Made by a program: the position numbers and the translations under genes. Shown here piece after piece: positions 27,412-34,363 of a DNA stretch of 64,000 nucleotides. The notes beneath the pieces were generated by a model that was given only the letters and a program-made list of their open reading frames with translations, was not told the DNA's origin and did no database searches. Source of the stretch: Roseibium aestuarii (GTDB taxonomy: Bacteria > Pseudomonadota > Alphaproteobacteria > Rhizobiales > Stappiaceae); assembly GCF_008477545.1 (NCBI RefSeq), contig NZ_VORA01000001.1, forward strand, positions 1,550,001-1,614,000, given 5' to 3'. The first letter of the stretch is position 1, and each line of letters begins with the position of its first letter.

Positions 27412-27737
27412 CGCCCCGCACGGTTGATCCTTGCGACGACCCACGACCTCCTGAACCCGGCGCCGGACCCGAAAGGGCCCGGCGCTTTGGTGTTTGAGGC
27501 ACAAACACGAAAAACCGGCCCCGAACCAATCGGAAAGCCGGACAAGACCTTGAACGTCACACTACGCCGTCACATGAGGTGACGATGCAGGATGAAGTTG
27601 TTTCTGGGAAAGAAAAAAGAGTTGGCTGGGGAACCTGGACCCTCATGGGGTGCGCAGATAAGCGTTTGATCTTGAAAAACATTCAGCGATTTCATAAAGG
27701 TAGGGTACATTCAACAGGGCATTTTGAGGTACATTCT
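27412..27737. other. Junction between the core genome and the integrated element
   Basis: These 326 bases contain a GC-rich hairpin (about 27459-27486) ending the iorAB transcript, then the left attachment site (27614-27639), then AT-rich element DNA before the integrase start. The integrase frame is open upstream to 27579, across the attachment site, but that stretch is not element coding sequence. Confidence 0.6.
27614..27639 (+). repeat. attL core of the integrated element
   Basis: A 26-base sequence that is repeated exactly at 34281-34306, in the 3' end of the tRNA-Gln gene. It includes the CCA end and T-arm side of the tRNA (TGGCTGGGGAACCTGG on this strand) plus AAAAAGAGT beyond it. The integrase gene starts about 100 bases inside. 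Confidence 0.9.
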
Positions 27738-29150
27738 TTGTCTCGAAGTCGTGCGCCGACCTACCTTGAGAAGATGAACAACGGTGGCTGGAGGGTGTCG
27801 GTTCCGGTCCCCCGAGAACTCGTCAAAGCCATCGGCAAGACCCGCCTGAAGCGATCCCTTGAGACGCACAGCCAAGCCGAAGCGGAACGGAAGAAACATG
27901 CCGTCGTGGCCGAGTTTCTCGCGATGATTCAAGCCGCCCGGGAAGGAAGGCTGCCGAAGGCCACAGTCGTGGGGATCGCCGCCGCGCCTTCCATGTCCGA
28001 CCGGGAGCTTACCAGTCTGGCCCTTGATCTTCGAAGCAATCTCCAGTCCCAAGACGAAGGCACCGACGATTTCGAACTGGAGAAAGAAGGCATCTTTCAG
28101 GTTGCCGAACTGATCAGGGGGCCTGAGATCGGGATTGATGAGGAGAGGGACAGCCCAGTTTTCGACCCGCACAGCGAGAAGAAGGCAGGTCAGTTTCTCC
28201 GAGTTGCCCTCGGAAAGGAGACACCAGTTCGTGAGCCGCTGGATCTCTTCCATGCGCAGGTGAAGTGGTCGCCGCGTACCAAGAGTGACAGCGGCAGGGC
28301 GATCAACGCGCTGGATGACTGGTGTAAGGACAAGCGTGTGCCCTTCGTTATCGAGGCTATTACCCGCAAGAGGGCTGGCCAGTTCATCGGCGACCTAGCG
28401 TCCAACCCTGACAGGCCGCTTACCAACCGGACCATCAACAAATATCTGTCCTGCCTGTCGCAGTTCTGGTTCTGGCTGGAGAAGCGCGGCTACGTCGAGC
28501 GTGATAGTTCTCCTTGGTCTCGCCAATCGCTGCCCAAGGTCCAGCCGAAGGAGGACGAGAAGGAGAGGCCATTCACTGACGACGAGATGGTGAAGCTGTT
28601 CAGCGGCCAACCCAATCAGCCCTATCTCAGGGATGTAATGTTAATCGGAGCCCTGACAGGTGCCCGCATCGATGCCATTATCAGCCTCAAGCGCAAGGAC
28701 ATCACCGAGGACGGAAACATCCGCTTCAAGCCGCAGAAACGGGAGAAGGCTTCCCGTCTGGTCCCTATCCACAGCGCCTTGAAATCGACCATGGAGCGGC
28801 TTGTGAAGGGCAAACAGCCCGATGATGATCTATTCCCCGAATGTCCTCCCGTGGCCGCTGACAAGCCGCAGGAACGGTCCATGCCGGCGGCGGTCAAGGC
28901 CTTCACCTACTACCGCAGGGCTTCCGGCATCGTTGATCCGGTGGAGGGCAAGCGCAGAGATCGCGTCAACTTCCACTCGTTCCGCCGATGGTTCATCACG
29001 AAGGCACTTCAAGCGGGCCAGCCAGAACTGGTGGTTCAGATCGTGGTCGGGCACAAGCCGCAGAGCGTGGCAGCTAGCGTGTACCTCGGAGGGCTGACCA
29101 TCGAGCAGATGCGAGAATGTGTGGAGGCGGTGAGGCTACCGCCGCTGTGA
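27738..29150 (+). CDS. int: Tyrosine site-specific integrase of the element
   Basis: A 470-aa phage-type integrase. The N-terminus (SRSRAPTYLEKMNNGGWRVSVPVPRELVKAIGKTRLKRSL) is the usual small DNA-binding head. A SAM-like core-binding domain spans about 170-300. The catalytic residues are in GALTGARIDAI (Arg), HSFRRWF (His-x-x-Arg), GHKPQSV and VYLGG (the Tyr nucleophile). It should recombine the 26-bp tRNA-Gln site. I chose TTG 27738, with GAGG eight bases upstream, since the open frame before it crosses attL. No excisionase gene is recognised. Confidence 0.87.
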   Translation: MSRSRAPTYLEKMNNGGWRVSVPVPRELVKAIGKTRLKRSLETHSQAEAERKKHAVVAEFLAMIQAAREGRLPKATVVGIAAAPSMSDRELTSLALDLRSNLQSQDEGTDDFELEKEGIFQVAELIRGPEIGIDEERDSPVFDPHSEKKAGQFLRVALGKETPVREPLDLFHAQVKWSPRTKSDSGRAINALDDWCKDKRVPFVIEAITRKRAGQFIGDLASNPDRPLTNRTINKYLSCLSQFWFWLEKRGYVERDSSPWSRQSLPKVQPKEDEKERPFTDDEMVKLFSGQPNQPYLRDVMLIGALTGARIDAIISLKRKDITEDGNIRFKPQKREKASRLVPIHSALKSTMERLVKGKQPDDDLFPECPPVAADKPQERSMPAAVKAFTYYRRASGIVDPVEGKRRDRVNFHSFRRWFITKALQAGQPELVVQIVVGHKPQSVAASVYLGGLTIEQMRECVEAVRLPPL

Positions 29151-29179
29151 TTTCAATTTTGTAGGAAATCCGACCAAGG

Positions 29180-29884
29180 TCAGCTATTGAGTGCCTTCTT
29201 TAAGGACTTAGGAAGCGCATCACTAACCAAGTCAAAATCACGATGATGGAGGCCCCGGTAGGTTTTCTCGGCAACGATACAAAACAAATAAAGTACTCTG
29301 CTGCAGGTTTCCGATATTGCCCCAAATGTTTCATTAGCCTCTTTTTCTAGATAACGAGGATACTCCCCAGAGGCTGTCACAAGCGCCATATGCGCGGCAT
29401 TGGACGTGTGGACGTATCCGCACAGTAGTGCGTATCTACTTCTTAGCACATTGAAGTAGCCGTATACTATTTTATCGTCTTTGATAGCTGGAACGCTGCT
29501 CACTAAGTCAAGGAGTTCATAGGTAGATTTTAGCGCAAGAACTGCCTGATCCTGAGATAGTCCCAAGCATCTCATCCAGTTCTCCAAGCCGCTCCTTAAG
29601 GAAAGTTGGGACGATTTGTATAATCCAGTGCTTGCCAAGAAAATGCTTTGGCATATATCTGAAATCGCCTCGCGGAAATAAACATGAAATTGTTCATTTT
29701 TTTCTTTTATTTTCCATGATGGCTTCTTGCTGAGGTTCGCCTCGAGAATAAGTAGGGGGTAATAGTGCTTAAATACCTTGCTTATGTGGCTTTGAAGTCG
29801 AGCGTCGTCCAGCAATGGTCCTATGTTGAACGACCTAAGGAACTGGCTGTACTCTAACTCTGCGGTTTTTGTTTTATGTTTCAT
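29180..29884 (-). CDS. Unknown alpha-helical protein, third gene of the ParA operon
   Basis: A 234-aa protein I do not recognise. It looks all-helical and soluble. A segment LYKSSQLSLRSGLENWMRCLGL and, later, RSRYALLCGYVHTSN resemble helical bundle proteins such as DUF5677 or HEPN-like families, but the Arg-to-His spacing does not fit a HEPN nuclease. The DNA is much more AT-rich than the host, with many A/T-ending codons, a sign of transfer. Its start overlaps the stop of the gene at 29874 by 11 bases, so it is co-translated with the ParA pair. Confidence 0.7.
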   Translation of the reverse strand: MKHKTKTAELEYSQFLRSFNIGPLLDDARLQSHISKVFKHYYPLLILEANLSKKPSWKIKEKNEQFHVYFREAISDICQSIFLASTGLYKSSQLSLRSGLENWMRCLGLSQDQAVLALKSTYELLDLVSSVPAIKDDKIVYGYFNVLRSRYALLCGYVHTSNAAHMALVTASGEYPRYLEKEANETFGAISETCSRVLYLFCIVAEKTYRGLHHRDFDLVSDALPKSLKKALNS

Positions 29885-30401
29885 CGACGCTACGCCGTGT
29901 CAGAATTTGTATCAGCTCGTTCCAGCTTTGGCTGTTGGCTCGTCGATCTGCTACTATAGCATCAATGCCCGGATCATCTTGAGTGACGCGGGTAATGGCT
30001 TCAACAAGACGACCAAGTCTTTGATCATCAAGCTTGGCGGTCTCGCAAACAATTAAGCCGATGAGTTCATAACGCGACCGCTTTTCCCAACGCGCGATGT
30101 TTAAGCCAAGGGCACCATTGGCAAAGTCGGCTATGTCTTCGTTGTTAGGAAAATACCGAGTATTGTTGAAAATTATAGGTAGGGAACCCACTAGGAACTG
30201 AATGTTTCCATTGCTGGAGCCGGCCTTGCGTAGTGACTCTGGAGGGGCAGTCTGAAAATTCGCCTCAGTCAGCATCTTAAAATCCAGATGGGAGTAGGAC
30301 TGGAGCAGCCATGATAGCTCCTCAAGAAACCGTCCAGCGGTTCGCACGTCACGGGTCTTTTCGGACCTCGTCGTAGATTTCTTCTCCGCCTTTTTAGCCA
30401 T
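29874..30401 (-). CDS. Unknown protein overlapping ParA
   Basis: A 175-aa protein without a recognised family. The N-terminus is very basic and flexible (MAKKAEKKSTTRSEKTRD), followed by a mixed alpha region (RFLEELSWLLQSYSHLDFKML, IADFANGALGLNIARWEKRSRYELIGLIVCETAKL). ATG 30401 overlaps the ParA stop by eight bases, so it is coupled to ParA. Small ParA partners often sit in this position, so it could be a ParA adaptor or centromere-binding partner, but no helix-turn-helix or ribbon-helix-helix motif is evident. The function is unknown. Confidence 0.72.
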   Translation of the reverse strand: MAKKAEKKSTTRSEKTRDVRTAGRFLEELSWLLQSYSHLDFKMLTEANFQTAPPESLRKAGSSNGNIQFLVGSLPIIFNNTRYFPNNEDIADFANGALGLNIARWEKRSRYELIGLIVCETAKLDDQRLGRLVEAITRVTQDDPGIDAIVADRRANSQSWNELIQILTRRSVDET

Positions 30402-31227
30402 TGGCTTTCTCCGCGAACTCCTTGGCAATACCGGTGATACCGCGCTTGAGGTCGTTGTCATCTAGATCAAAGATCAAGGCTTGGTGCCCTTGTCCTTTTG
30501 CGAGCTTAACTCGTTTAGGTAAAGAAGCCGCGTATCGCTTCCCTGCCCAGACGGGGTTCTTGTCCAAAAATTCTACGGCTTCCCGGTACACCACGGTGTT
30601 GGTTTCAACGATGGTCAGAACCACTCCGACGCATTCAATCGGATGTCCGTAGTTCTGAGAGAAGCGCTCAACAACACCTCGCAAAAGATCTATGCCGGTT
30701 CGAGATAGCGGCTCTGGCTTGACGGGAACTAAATAGCCATCTGATGCCAGAAGCGCCGCCATCATCCAGTGGGACGGTGTCGGTGGAGTGTCAACGATGA
30801 CAAAGTCATATATCTCCGCCGCGTTAATTGCTTCCAGATACCTCTTGAGCCGTTGTTCTCGGCCTTGCCCGCCTCCCATTTCCAGCCGATACAGCTCCAA
30901 GTCCCCGGGCAGAAGGTCAAAATTTTCCTTTATCCGCCAAGGCTTGATGTCCTTGAGTGCAATGGGGGCTTGCGGTTTGGCTCCTTCGACAGCGCTAACG
31001 GCCATGGGAGCGTCGTCAAAGATGCTAACGATTGTCGGCTGCCCAGCGGCCCGAGATTTCACATATTTTTCTGGCGAGATCAGACACTGAGTAGCGTTGA
31101 ATTGAGGGTCAAGGTCGACAAGTAAGACTTTGCGACCGTGTCGTCGTACCAATGTGTCGGCAAGATTGGTTGCCAGGGTTGTCTTTGCCACGCCCCCCTT
31201 CATGTTTACAACGCTGATAACTGCCAT
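30394..31227 (-). CDS. parA: ParA-family ATPase
   Basis: A 277-aa ATPase of the ParA/MinD class. The deviant Walker A is VNMKGGVAKTT (8-18) with both signature lysines, Walker A' is VLLVDLDPQFNAT, and Walker B is FVIVDTPPT. There is no N-terminal DNA-binding domain, so it is the short plasmid/orphan type. GGAGG lies five bases before ATG 31227, and the promoter is visible upstream. It is not adjacent to the ParB-domain gene at 32660; instead it overlaps two unknown genes. It may stabilise the element or position an unknown complex. Confidence 0.9.
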   Translation of the reverse strand: MAVISVVNMKGGVAKTTLATNLADTLVRRHGRKVLLVDLDPQFNATQCLISPEKYVKSRAAGQPTIVSIFDDAPMAVSAVEGAKPQAPIALKDIKPWRIKENFDLLPGDLELYRLEMGGGQGREQRLKRYLEAINAAEIYDFVIVDTPPTPSHWMMAALLASDGYLVPVKPEPLSRTGIDLLRGVVERFSQNYGHPIECVGVVLTIVETNTVVYREAVEFLDKNPVWAGKRYAASLPKRVKLAKGQGHQALIFDLDDNDLKRGITGIAKEFAEKANG

Positions 31228-31260
31228 ACTTGCCTCCCAGACCCAAATTCGATGTCAATG

Positions 31261-31287
31261 GGTATAAACTGCAAATTCAACTGTCAA
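31261..31287 (-). promoter_or_regulatory. Putative promoter of the ParA operon
   Basis: Read on the minus strand, TTGACA (31287-31282) and TATACC (31266-31261) are 15 bases apart, just upstream of the parA ribosome binding site. The pattern TTGACA...GAATTTG occurs twice in tandem here, which may be an operator for self-regulation. Confidence 0.5.
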
Positions 31288-31317
31288 TTGCTGTTCGCTC
31301 AGGGCTCTACCGGATAC

Positions 31318-31920
31318 TCAAAAAGCATTATCGCCCCCTCTGGAAGATGCGGAGAGGTTTTCTGTCCCCCTAAGGATCCTGAATACGCTGGAGCGGCTGA
31401 CCCCCAGAACCTCCACGATCTCTTCCGCAGTCTTTCCTTCGGCCCTTAGTCGCCTGACATCATCAGCCTTTCTTTGGGCTGTTGGTGCGCGGCCCTTGTA
31501 CTTGCCTTCTTCCTTAGCCTTGGCAATGCCTTCCCGCTGCCGCTCCAGCATGATTTCCCGTTCAAACTCTGCAATGGACCCTAGCAGGTTCATCATCAGC
31601 TTGCCGGTCGGTGTCGAGGTATCGATCCCAAGGGCCAGGATCTTGAGCGTCACGCCCTTAGCTTGAAGCGTATCCGTGATCCTGACCAGATCGGGCATTG
31701 AACGGGCAAGACGATCCAGCTTGGTGACTACGAACACGTCACCCTCACGGGCATACTCCAAGGCCCGCTCAAGTTCTGGCCTGTTCTTGTCCACTGAGGA
31801 AACCTGTTCCTGAAACACCTTCTCACAGCCAGCAGCCTCAAGGTCGCGAAGTTGGGCAGCGAGGCCATAGGTCTGGTCAATTGTCGAGGTGCGGGCATAG
31901 CCGATGATGGTAGAGGGCAT
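31318..31920 (-). CDS. Serine recombinase (resolvase/invertase)
   Basis: A 200-aa small serine recombinase. The catalytic domain starts IIGYARTSTIDQ with Ser12 as nucleophile and Arg10 beside it, and continues with FVVTKLDRLARSMPDL, GKLMMNLLGSIAEFEREIMLERQREG. The last 50 residues are a Hin-type helix-turn-helix (EGKTAEEIVEVLGVSRSSVFRIL). It cuts and rejoins DNA at a res or inversion site. GGAG precedes ATG 31920. A diverged inverted repeat directly upstream (31935-32003) could be its site. It probably resolves multimers or rearranges the element. Confidence 0.9.
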   Translation of the reverse strand: MPSTIIGYARTSTIDQTYGLAAQLRDLEAAGCEKVFQEQVSSVDKNRPELERALEYAREGDVFVVTKLDRLARSMPDLVRITDTLQAKGVTLKILALGIDTSTPTGKLMMNLLGSIAEFEREIMLERQREGIAKAKEEGKYKGRAPTAQRKADDVRRLRAEGKTAEEIVEVLGVSRSSVFRILRGTENLSASSRGGDNAF

Positions 31921-31934
31921 AGGTGAAGCTCCGA

Positions 31935-32003
31935 AGTGCCATATAAGTCATTGACCTTGTGATACCGTCAGTCTCAAAAGTCAATAACCACTCATGTGGC
32001 ACT
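31935..32003. repeat. Imperfect inverted repeat upstream of the resolvase, possible res site
   Basis: The left arm 31935-31955 begins AGTGCC and ends TCATTGAC. The right arm 31980-32003 begins GTCAAT and ends GTGGCACT. The arm ends pair well, the middles less so. Further TCAATGAC and GTCACTCC words follow to about 32020. Position next to a resolvase gene is typical of a recombination site. Confidence 0.45.
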
Positions 32004-32042: not shown

Positions 32043-32408
32043 CTATTGGGACTGGTGTGCCTTCTGGGCGCTGCGGCGGCTCTTAGCGGTGCGGCTCCGT
32101 TCAAGTACCCGCTGCCGATACTCAGGGTCGCTGTGGTAGCGCCTCTTGTTCGCCTCACGGCTGACCTCCAGCCTCTTGGCTCGAAAGTCAGGGTCTGTCC
32201 TGTACCGCTCCTTGATGCGCTCCAGTTTCCGCTTCTGCTTCGCCTGATATGCTGCCTGCCTCTTCTCCAGCTTCGCCTGACGCGCTGCTTCGTCGTCCGA
32301 CCGCTGGGGGATCTTCTGGAGCTGGTGGTGCTGGTCGCAATGATCATGGGCTTTTGCCTCGTAGTCATCACCCCAGCGGAGATCGATCAGAATGTTGCTG
32401 TCGTCCAT
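32043..32408 (-). CDS. Small highly charged repeat protein
   Basis: A 121-aa protein with an acidic start (MDDSNILIDLRWGDDYE), then a long Lys/Arg/Gln/Glu-rich helical stretch. Two copies of a short unit are visible: RYRTDPDFRAKRLEVSREAN and RYHSDPEYRQRVLERSRTA. Such tyrosine-Asp-Pro repeats occur in small proteins of mobile elements and sometimes near HNH endonucleases, but no HNH motif is present. The high positive charge suggests nucleic-acid binding. AAGGA precedes ATG 32408. The function is unknown. Confidence 0.65.
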   Translation of the reverse strand: MDDSNILIDLRWGDDYEAKAHDHCDQHHQLQKIPQRSDDEAARQAKLEKRQAAYQAKQKRKLERIKERYRTDPDFRAKRLEVSREANKRRYHSDPEYRQRVLERSRTAKSRRSAQKAHQSQ

Positions 32409-32659: not shown

Positions 32660-33547
32660 TCAGAAGTCGGCTTCTTCCTCGTCGTCGGTGAAGCCATCCA
32701 GATCGCCTTCAGACAGCAGCCGTATGATGTCCTCGACTCTGCCCGGGCAAAGCTTCTCAATGGTAGCCGCCATGATCTCCGTGTTCTTGAAAAACTGGGG
32801 GCCAACGGCCCGTTGTATTCTGTCAGCGTATTCCTTCGCCTTCTGCTCCACGACATCCTCCCAATCCAAATCCATCTTGCATGTTCGGCCCTTGGCCAAC
32901 GACAGAGCCGCATTCCAAGCGGAAGGCAGCGTTTGATCCGCCTTCAACAACTCCTTCCTCACCTTCCGCATGTTGCCGATGGTGCTAGTAGGGAGCCCCG
33001 TAAGCTTGCTCTCCTGTTGTTTGGAGTAGATCCCAAGGCAGACCAGCATCCATGCATGGTTGCTCCTTTGTGCCGATGTGAGGGGAAGCTTGATGTCGAG
33101 GTGAGAACCAGTGGCGAAAGCTAGTGCGTCTTGAGGTGTGCCTTCAAACCAACTGACAGGGATCGTCACCGGCTTCCCGGTCCGCCTCCGATACAGCTTG
33201 TAGGCCTTCACGCGATGATGGCCATCAAGGAGGATGATCGAGCCACCGCATCTCCAAACAGAGATGGGTCTCAGATCGTCCCCAGTGGTCAGGGTGTAGA
33301 GCAGGCTCTCAACGTGTCTGTTGTCGATCTCCCCCGCTCCCCGTGCCTGAAACAGGGCTTCGATGTGGAGCAGATCGTTAGGGTTGATTCTGTCTGGCTT
33401 GGCGGGATCGTCGCGCCCCGTAGCTTTCACCTCCCCCAACACCTTCAGTATGTCGGCAGGATCTCGCGACGGCAAATCAGCCGGTAATGTTCCGGAACCC
33501 GCCAATGAGGGCGCTTTGTGTTCCTCGGTCGTCATCGTTGTTTCCAT
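32660..33547 (-). CDS. ParB/Srx-like domain protein of the element
   Basis: A 295-aa protein. Residues about 45-135 form a ParB N-terminal-like domain, with the key IILLDGHHRVKAYKL box and, before it, LRPISVWRCGG. The middle (STIGNMRKVRKELLK) may be a DNA-binding helix pair, and the end is strongly acidic (SEGDLDGFTDDEEEADF). Such proteins act as CTP-dependent partition proteins or as regulators or nucleases on mobile elements. The parA gene is 1.4 kb away with two genes between. The start could be ATG 33547 or ATG 33535; the latter has GGAAA close by. Confidence 0.82.
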   Translation of the reverse strand: METTMTTEEHKAPSLAGSGTLPADLPSRDPADILKVLGEVKATGRDDPAKPDRINPNDLLHIEALFQARGAGEIDNRHVESLLYTLTTGDDLRPISVWRCGGSIILLDGHHRVKAYKLYRRRTGKPVTIPVSWFEGTPQDALAFATGSHLDIKLPLTSAQRSNHAWMLVCLGIYSKQQESKLTGLPTSTIGNMRKVRKELLKADQTLPSAWNAALSLAKGRTCKMDLDWEDVVEQKAKEYADRIQRAVGPQFFKNTEIMAATIEKLCPGRVEDIIRLLSEGDLDGFTDDEEEADF

Positions 33548-33592
33548 TGATTGCCATGATGTTCGTTTTGTTGTTGTCGTCTCCACCACTGA

Positions 33593-34280: not shown

Positions 34281-34306
34281 AAAAAGAGTTGGCTGGGGAA
34301 CCTGGA
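34281..34306 (+). repeat. attR core of the integrated element
   Basis: This is the exact 26-base copy of 27614-27639. It overlaps the 3' part of the tRNA-Gln gene (acceptor stem and part of the T-arm) and its 3' flank, so the tRNA remains whole after integration. Confidence 0.9.
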
Positions 34307-34363
34307 TTCGAACCAGGACTAACGGAGTCAGAGTCCGCGGGTCTACCGTTAACCTATTCCCCA
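34290..34363 (-). tRNA. glnT: tRNA-Gln (anticodon CTG)
   Basis: Read on the minus strand, the 74-nt gene starts TGGGGAATAGGTTAACGGT and ends GGTTCCCCAGCCA, with the CCA end encoded. The acceptor stem TGGGGAA pairs with TTCCCCA. The anticodon loop is CTCTGAC within GCGGA/TCCGT-type stem arms, giving anticodon CTG (glutamine). The T-arm has the usual GGTTCGAATCC. The element at 27614-34281 is integrated at its 3' end. The symbol is generic. Confidence 0.95.

Follow-up and report, generated by a model that had tools for sequence, protein, structure and literature searches.

The window analysed here is a stretch of 64,000 nucleotides of Roseibium aestuarii DNA (contig NZ_VORA01000001.1, positions 1,550,001 to 1,614,000) and it contains an integrated element of approximately 6.7 kb, with a tyrosine integrase at one end and a tRNA-Gln at the other. 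Inside this element, three genes encode a ParA/Soj-type ATPase and two helical proteins, designated X and Y below, and form the trio that is the subject of this analysis (Table 1). An earlier description of the window, made from the letters alone (the sequence-only reading), had reported three overlapping open reading frames; all three were confirmed on the minus strand, parA and X overlapping by 8 bp and X and Y by 11 bp. The longest frame for X starts at 30461 and would give 195 amino acids; we used the ATG at 30401, which gives 175 and the overlap quoted. The G+C content is 49% for the trio, 54% for the element and 63% for the whole window, and a promoter scan of window positions 29000-32000 found none.

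Table 1. Features of the trio and of the element that carries it (window coordinates)
Feature	Position	Strand	Evidence or remark
ParA/Soj-type ATPase, DxDPQFNxTQ subclade, trio gene 1	30394-31227	-	277 amino acids; AAA_31, PHROG 164
X, helical protein, trio gene 2	29874-30401	-	175 amino acids; PHROG 12497
Y, predicted HEPN-like helical protein, trio gene 3, putative effector	29180-29884	-	234 amino acids; PHROG 12265
Tyrosine integrase of the element	27579-29150	+	Phage_integrase 2.8e-11, DUF6538 3.4e-10
Attachment (att) copy, left end of the element	27614-27639		26 bp identical to 34281-34306
Attachment (att) copy at the right end, overlapping the 3' end of tRNA-Gln	34281-34306		26-bp exact repeat
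tRNA-Gln(CTG), integration target	34290-34363	-	ARAGORN
Serine resolvase of the element, outside the trio	31318-31920	-	Resolvase 1e-45
ParB-like protein of the element, outside the trio	32660-33589	-	PHROG 1033 ParB-like 1.1e-11

The trio is a conserved module that we found in genomes of Pseudomonadota and Bacillota, on a plasmid, in an Escherichia coli island and on viral contigs. A scan of viral contigs with the ParA subfamily recovered 56 loci, and a downstream pair of frames with the sizes of X and Y, in the same tight order, was present in 42 of the 51 loci examined. The corresponding genome-wide ParA scan, of which the best 80 of 211 loci were taken as a sample, gave named hosts of the trio that include Caenispirillum, Dyella, Variovorax, Rossellomorea and Lysinibacillus. 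Protein searches placed X and Y together on the same two plasmid records, a Plesiomonas plasmid and an entry of 4.8 Mb listed as an E. coli plasmid; on the former, p11184, the order is rep, interrupted parA, X and Y, the ParA frame (L002 3664-4479) being interrupted in the deposited sequence. In E. coli, at least 80% of a 3-kb query around the trio is present in 133 of 5426 complete genomes and at least 80% of another version in 52 of the same 5426; the trio is annotated in another strain as a ParA family protein followed by two hypothetical proteins. Viral-contig scans using single proteins of the window found no relative, and tblastn of phage records gave no match.

The trio is rare in the sampled genomes of relatives. 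Among 101 genomes of the window organism and its relatives, X was present in 1, and an early profile of three sequences detected it in 1 of 398 genomes, each time its own genome alone. A better profile detected Y in 2 of 397, one of which is its own; the other match, also in Pseudomonadota, has X beside Y at the edge of a contig, which would leave ParA off the assembled sequence. In Bacillota, the Y profile gave matches in 5 of 299 genomes. One of them is the seed genome; ParA, X and Y occur together in two more, a further one has a Y-like protein next to an AAA ATPase with no ParA, and the last match is weak. ParA and X likewise accompany a second Y of the Lysinibacillus genome. The sequence-only reading would have been undermined by partners occurring mostly without parA; among these Bacillota Y matches, which are few, they do not.

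The ParA of the window matches AAA_31 (6.3e-35) and the ParA-like PHROG 164 (4.9e-47) and shares 43% identity with its counterpart in the E. coli trio. It has the deviant Walker A motif (KGGxxKT), whose K10, G11 and K15 are kept in 32 of 32 loci, and its ATPase core is intact. These 32 loci, used in the comparisons below, come from a non-redundant set of 37 in which the window sequence takes the place of L013, its own copy; the close relatives L021, L023 and L042 were excluded, as were L045, whose Y was poor, and L109, whose ParA is split in two. The divergences of ParA, X and Y across them are correlated (r 0.82, 0.89 and 0.75; 0 of 2000 permutations each), which shows common inheritance and not interaction.

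A two-part signature, NMKGG and DxDPQFNx[TS][QH], was used to compare this kind of ParA with other ParAs from the same scans, at loci with 1.1 kb or more of sequence downstream (a requirement that removed 4 viral and 9 genome loci). On viral contigs, profiles detected X and Y at 42 of 44 signature loci and at 0 of 6 non-signature loci, a comparison that is circular because the X and Y profiles were built from those loci. Genome loci outside the profile building are free of this circularity: among the best 80 of 211, both partners were found at 7 of 18 signature loci and at least one at 11 of 18, versus 1 of 53 non-signature ParAs with partners (L109, the one with its ParA in two pieces), although signature and non-signature ParAs of the genome set are also not equally similar to the query. 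The layout goes beyond chance, since it recurs in distant bacteria, and the proposal that the three genes are a single unit carried by a mobile element is strongly supported by the order kept in distant hosts, by the correlated divergence and by the tie between the ParA signature and its partners.

X had been described as basic, which holds for the family better than for the window: the window copy is weakly basic (isoelectric point 7.8), and the median across the 32 loci is 9.6. Its model is helical, with a predicted local distance difference test score (pLDDT) of 78, a confident core at about residues 70-140 and uncertain ends. As modelled, X has no recognised fold; its best matches among known structures, with Foldseek and VIA-align, reached Z 5.6 and 5.1 and were not convincing, and Foldseek gave none at E <= 0.001. 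The letters of X suggest a possible SAP/HeH-like helix-loop-helix; in the structure comparison a SAP domain scored Z 3.8. Profile searches with X and Y against sequences of proteins of solved structure returned nothing significant, and the members of both families that were scanned had no Pfam or NCBIfam match over the curated cut-off.

Y, in turn, is predicted from its model to be HEPN-like. The model (built from an alignment from which L045, L055 and L080 were dropped) is all-helical with a pLDDT of 87.8, and the top structures are the HEPN-labelled 2hsb, 3o10 and 4nqf (Z 10.9, 9.9 and 9.7), then 1ufb (Z 9.6), a HEPN protein; these four superpose at 2.8-4.2 Å over 121-133 residues, and HepT is also among the matches (Z 8.6). 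Foldseek gave 1ufb a probability of 0.98 and the HEPN domain of sacsin 0.85. In the Pfam scan, HEPN matches 1 of 34 Y members (5.1e-5) and DUF5677 matches one (0.0056). All 32 loci have Arg97, Glu101 and His159. Glu101 opens an Ex3[KR] motif, with Arg or Lys at 105 in 29 of 32, on a helix that spans residues 89-109 (helix 2 of the model), and His159 lies at the end of helix 3. Passages of PMC3710099 place Ex3[KR] in helix 2 of HEPN domains and the catalytic His at the end of helix 3, and mention that in some HEPN families other basic residues may have taken over from the motif Arg. The idea that the third protein might be HEPN-like is backed by structure prediction and, more weakly, by sequence.

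We tallied the neighbours of the trio at 37 loci, some of them mutually related (at most two proteins per side, 136 in all), and considered the 25 commonest families. Among the families listed, integrases number 12-13, a phage repressor family 6 and S24-peptidases (CI/UmuD-like) 5, along with a variety of tail and head genes and a single type II methyltransferase. In Rossellomorea, PsyrT-PsyrA lies directly upstream of the trio, and the E. coli trio adjoins type I restriction-modification genes and DarTG; in other complete E. coli genomes its neighbours are prophage genes and an integrase, whole or as a remnant (one case being recognised by layout), and a further copy has several integrases around it and a DUF262 protein near. 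Lysogenic-conversion and defence genes are known to reside at the ends of prophages and in slots next to integrases. With integrases and repressor-like proteins as the commonest recognised neighbours, the trio could also be a module of temperate phages for lysogeny or host control, for example for prophage induction, with no part in defence. We regard this as improbable, and as the least probable of the alternatives considered, as the trio is also found on a plasmid and in non-phage surroundings and a regulatory role would leave the HEPN-like protein unexplained.

On this context and on the fold of Y, we favour defence or conflict over partition, and with moderate confidence we read the trio as a three-protein conflict module borne by mobile elements, either anti-phage or toxin-antitoxin-like. 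The sequence-only reading had left the use of the trio between stabilisation of the excised element, host control and phage defence; the defence half of this choice is the one that context and fold favour, and the partition half gained no support, no repeat array having been found upstream of parA at 32 loci and many copies being chromosomal, though one comes after a plasmid rep gene. We infer the following course of events. ATP-bound ParA and X would form a sensing and restraining core, in which X may contact ParA through a basic tail or through its conserved Trp-containing C-terminus, in the manner of small ParB-like partners, and would keep Y in an inactive state. When a competing phage infects the cell, the nucleotide state or the DNA-bound state of ParA might then shift and so release Y, and the freed Y would act on RNA through His159, Arg97 and Glu101, stopping growth so that the infection fails. 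If this is true, ParA ATPases, studied mainly for segregation, would gain a role in bacterial immunity, and a trio annotated in complete E. coli genomes as "ParA family protein, hypothetical, hypothetical" would acquire a function open to testing in a laboratory species.

Several results weigh against this reading. For Y, Foldseek gave no match at E <= 0.001, nor did it against viral models; unrelated seven-helix receptors follow close behind the HEPN structures (Z 9.4), so that the fold alone is not conclusive; and unrelated families reach 0.0017 in the same Pfam scan of Y members. The Rx4-6H motif is incomplete in Y, which has no conserved Arg at the three allowed positions 152-154, and this makes an RNase activity, which we propose as a hypothesis, uncertain. 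X and Y matched PADLOC-DB 2.0.0 at E 0.018 or worse only, in the members scanned. The Caenispirillum trio adjoins gyrB and an SMC/RecF-like gene, and in Bacillota a Y-like protein (L182, 1378-3538) adjoins an AAA ATPase, without ParA or X. With regard to the unit itself, 7 of the 18 signature genome loci have neither X nor Y by profile; these seven carry an X-sized frame of 176-208 amino acids that overlaps or touches parA and has a W..[IVML]I tail like that of X, and none has a Y-sized frame at the place of Y. Finally, at L054, L075 and L113 the middle frame fails the X profile despite having the size of X.

At these last three loci, ParA and Y flank the unmatched X-sized frame. A Y-less sister group (L072, L074, L077, L078, L082, L085 and L096) may represent a two-gene relative or carriers of another effector. 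Because Y is absent from signature loci that keep an X-sized frame, it is not obligatory, and from these comparisons ParA with an X-like partner looks like the core, Y being a usual but dispensable third part. This bears on plain addiction, in which Y would be a toxin, ParA and/or X the antitoxin, and persistence of the element the only outcome. Overlapping genes on mobile elements are typical of such systems, and a ParA/Soj gene paired with a HEPN gene (MAE_18760) has already been predicted, in the passages available from PMC3710099 (Anantharaman et al. 2013), to be an antitoxin with an RNase toxin. In the trio, however, Y has two partner genes, and some loci with ParA and an X-like frame lack Y, which is not expected of a simple toxin-antitoxin pair; some copies moreover lie among defence genes. 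We consider plain addiction unlikely, somewhat more so than partition.

Partition or maintenance, which we ranked second after the conflict reading and also consider unlikely, would have ParA and a DNA-binding X keep the element or its excised form, with Y as an accessory. ParA is the hallmark ATPase of partition, the trio of plasmid p11184 comes after a rep gene, X is basic on average, and an X-sized frame follows parA at 15 of 15 incomplete signature loci, with or without Y. Against this, exact 8-base repeats are not in excess over shuffles in the 300 bp upstream of parA at the 32 loci (palindromes exceed shuffles at L062 and L098 and are not shared), 67 of the 68 places of one E. coli version are chromosomal, where partition is not needed, and the ParB-like gene of the element lies apart from the trio, in keeping with the sequence-only reading, which had it elsewhere.

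Within the conflict reading, a bolder version would make the trio an immune system of a new class. A ParA-type ATPase, from a family known for the positioning of DNA and cargo, would sense invading DNA together with a dedicated adaptor and release a HEPN-like effector, ParA and X being a general sensing core that can gain and lose effectors such as Y. This version is tentative and we think it doubtful. ParA gave short P-loop matches in PADLOC-DB 2.0.0, the best being 1.2e-7 to PDC-M28B (L024), and 1.2e-4 in the window.

Other parts of the element and of the genome can be described briefly. The integrase frame runs upstream through the left att copy (27579-27645), so that its GTG start would fall outside the element; the true start probably lies further in. 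The element also has a small frame of 121 amino acids at window 32043-32408. In a congener (G015; L164, around 11600) the right flank and the tRNA-Gln are conserved, and no match to the left flank was found, so that an empty site could not be shown there; the unmatched left flank means that the locus varies beyond this element. Elsewhere in the window organism's genome, outside the window, there is a gene of the HEPN_MAE_28990 family (G000:C11:1424186-1424785; 7.5e-31).

A description of the trio was not found in the open-access literature searched, subscription papers and supplements being outside the search; the passages available from PMC9519451 and PMC13092281 do not mention ParA, and those from PMC7159879 deal with other ParA-like domains. 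The direct matches to X and Y are PHROG 12497 (6.3e-18) and PHROG 12265 (2.9e-14), both listed as of unknown function. With type I ParAB(S) systems the trio shares an intact ParA core and a small partner encoded directly downstream, but X has no recognised fold, no upstream repeat array was found in the trio, and there is a third, predicted HEPN-like gene. With MNT-HEPN (MntA-HepT) it shares the combination of a predicted HEPN-fold protein, for which HepT is a structural match, and a nucleotide-binding partner, but the latter is an ATPase and not a nucleotidyltransferase, an extra protein is present and the canonical Rx4-6H is missing. The nearest relative in kind is the ParA/Soj and MAE_18760 pair as presented in the passages from PMC3710099, where a ParA/Soj-like ATPase gene also stands beside a HEPN-type gene in a conflict-linked setting; the trio differs from it in having the middle protein X and in the incomplete Rx4-6H of Y. 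None of the 34 Y members gave a MAE-named Pfam match at E <= 0.1 (the library may not include a MAE_18760 model), and 12 loci of the related MAE_28990 family had no ParA, X or Y in the stretch examined. Because the ParA-HEPN pairing was predicted in 2013, we class the trio as a variant of that known kind, of which the three-gene form with X is new; if ParA and X do form a sensing core, it would be a new kind of system.
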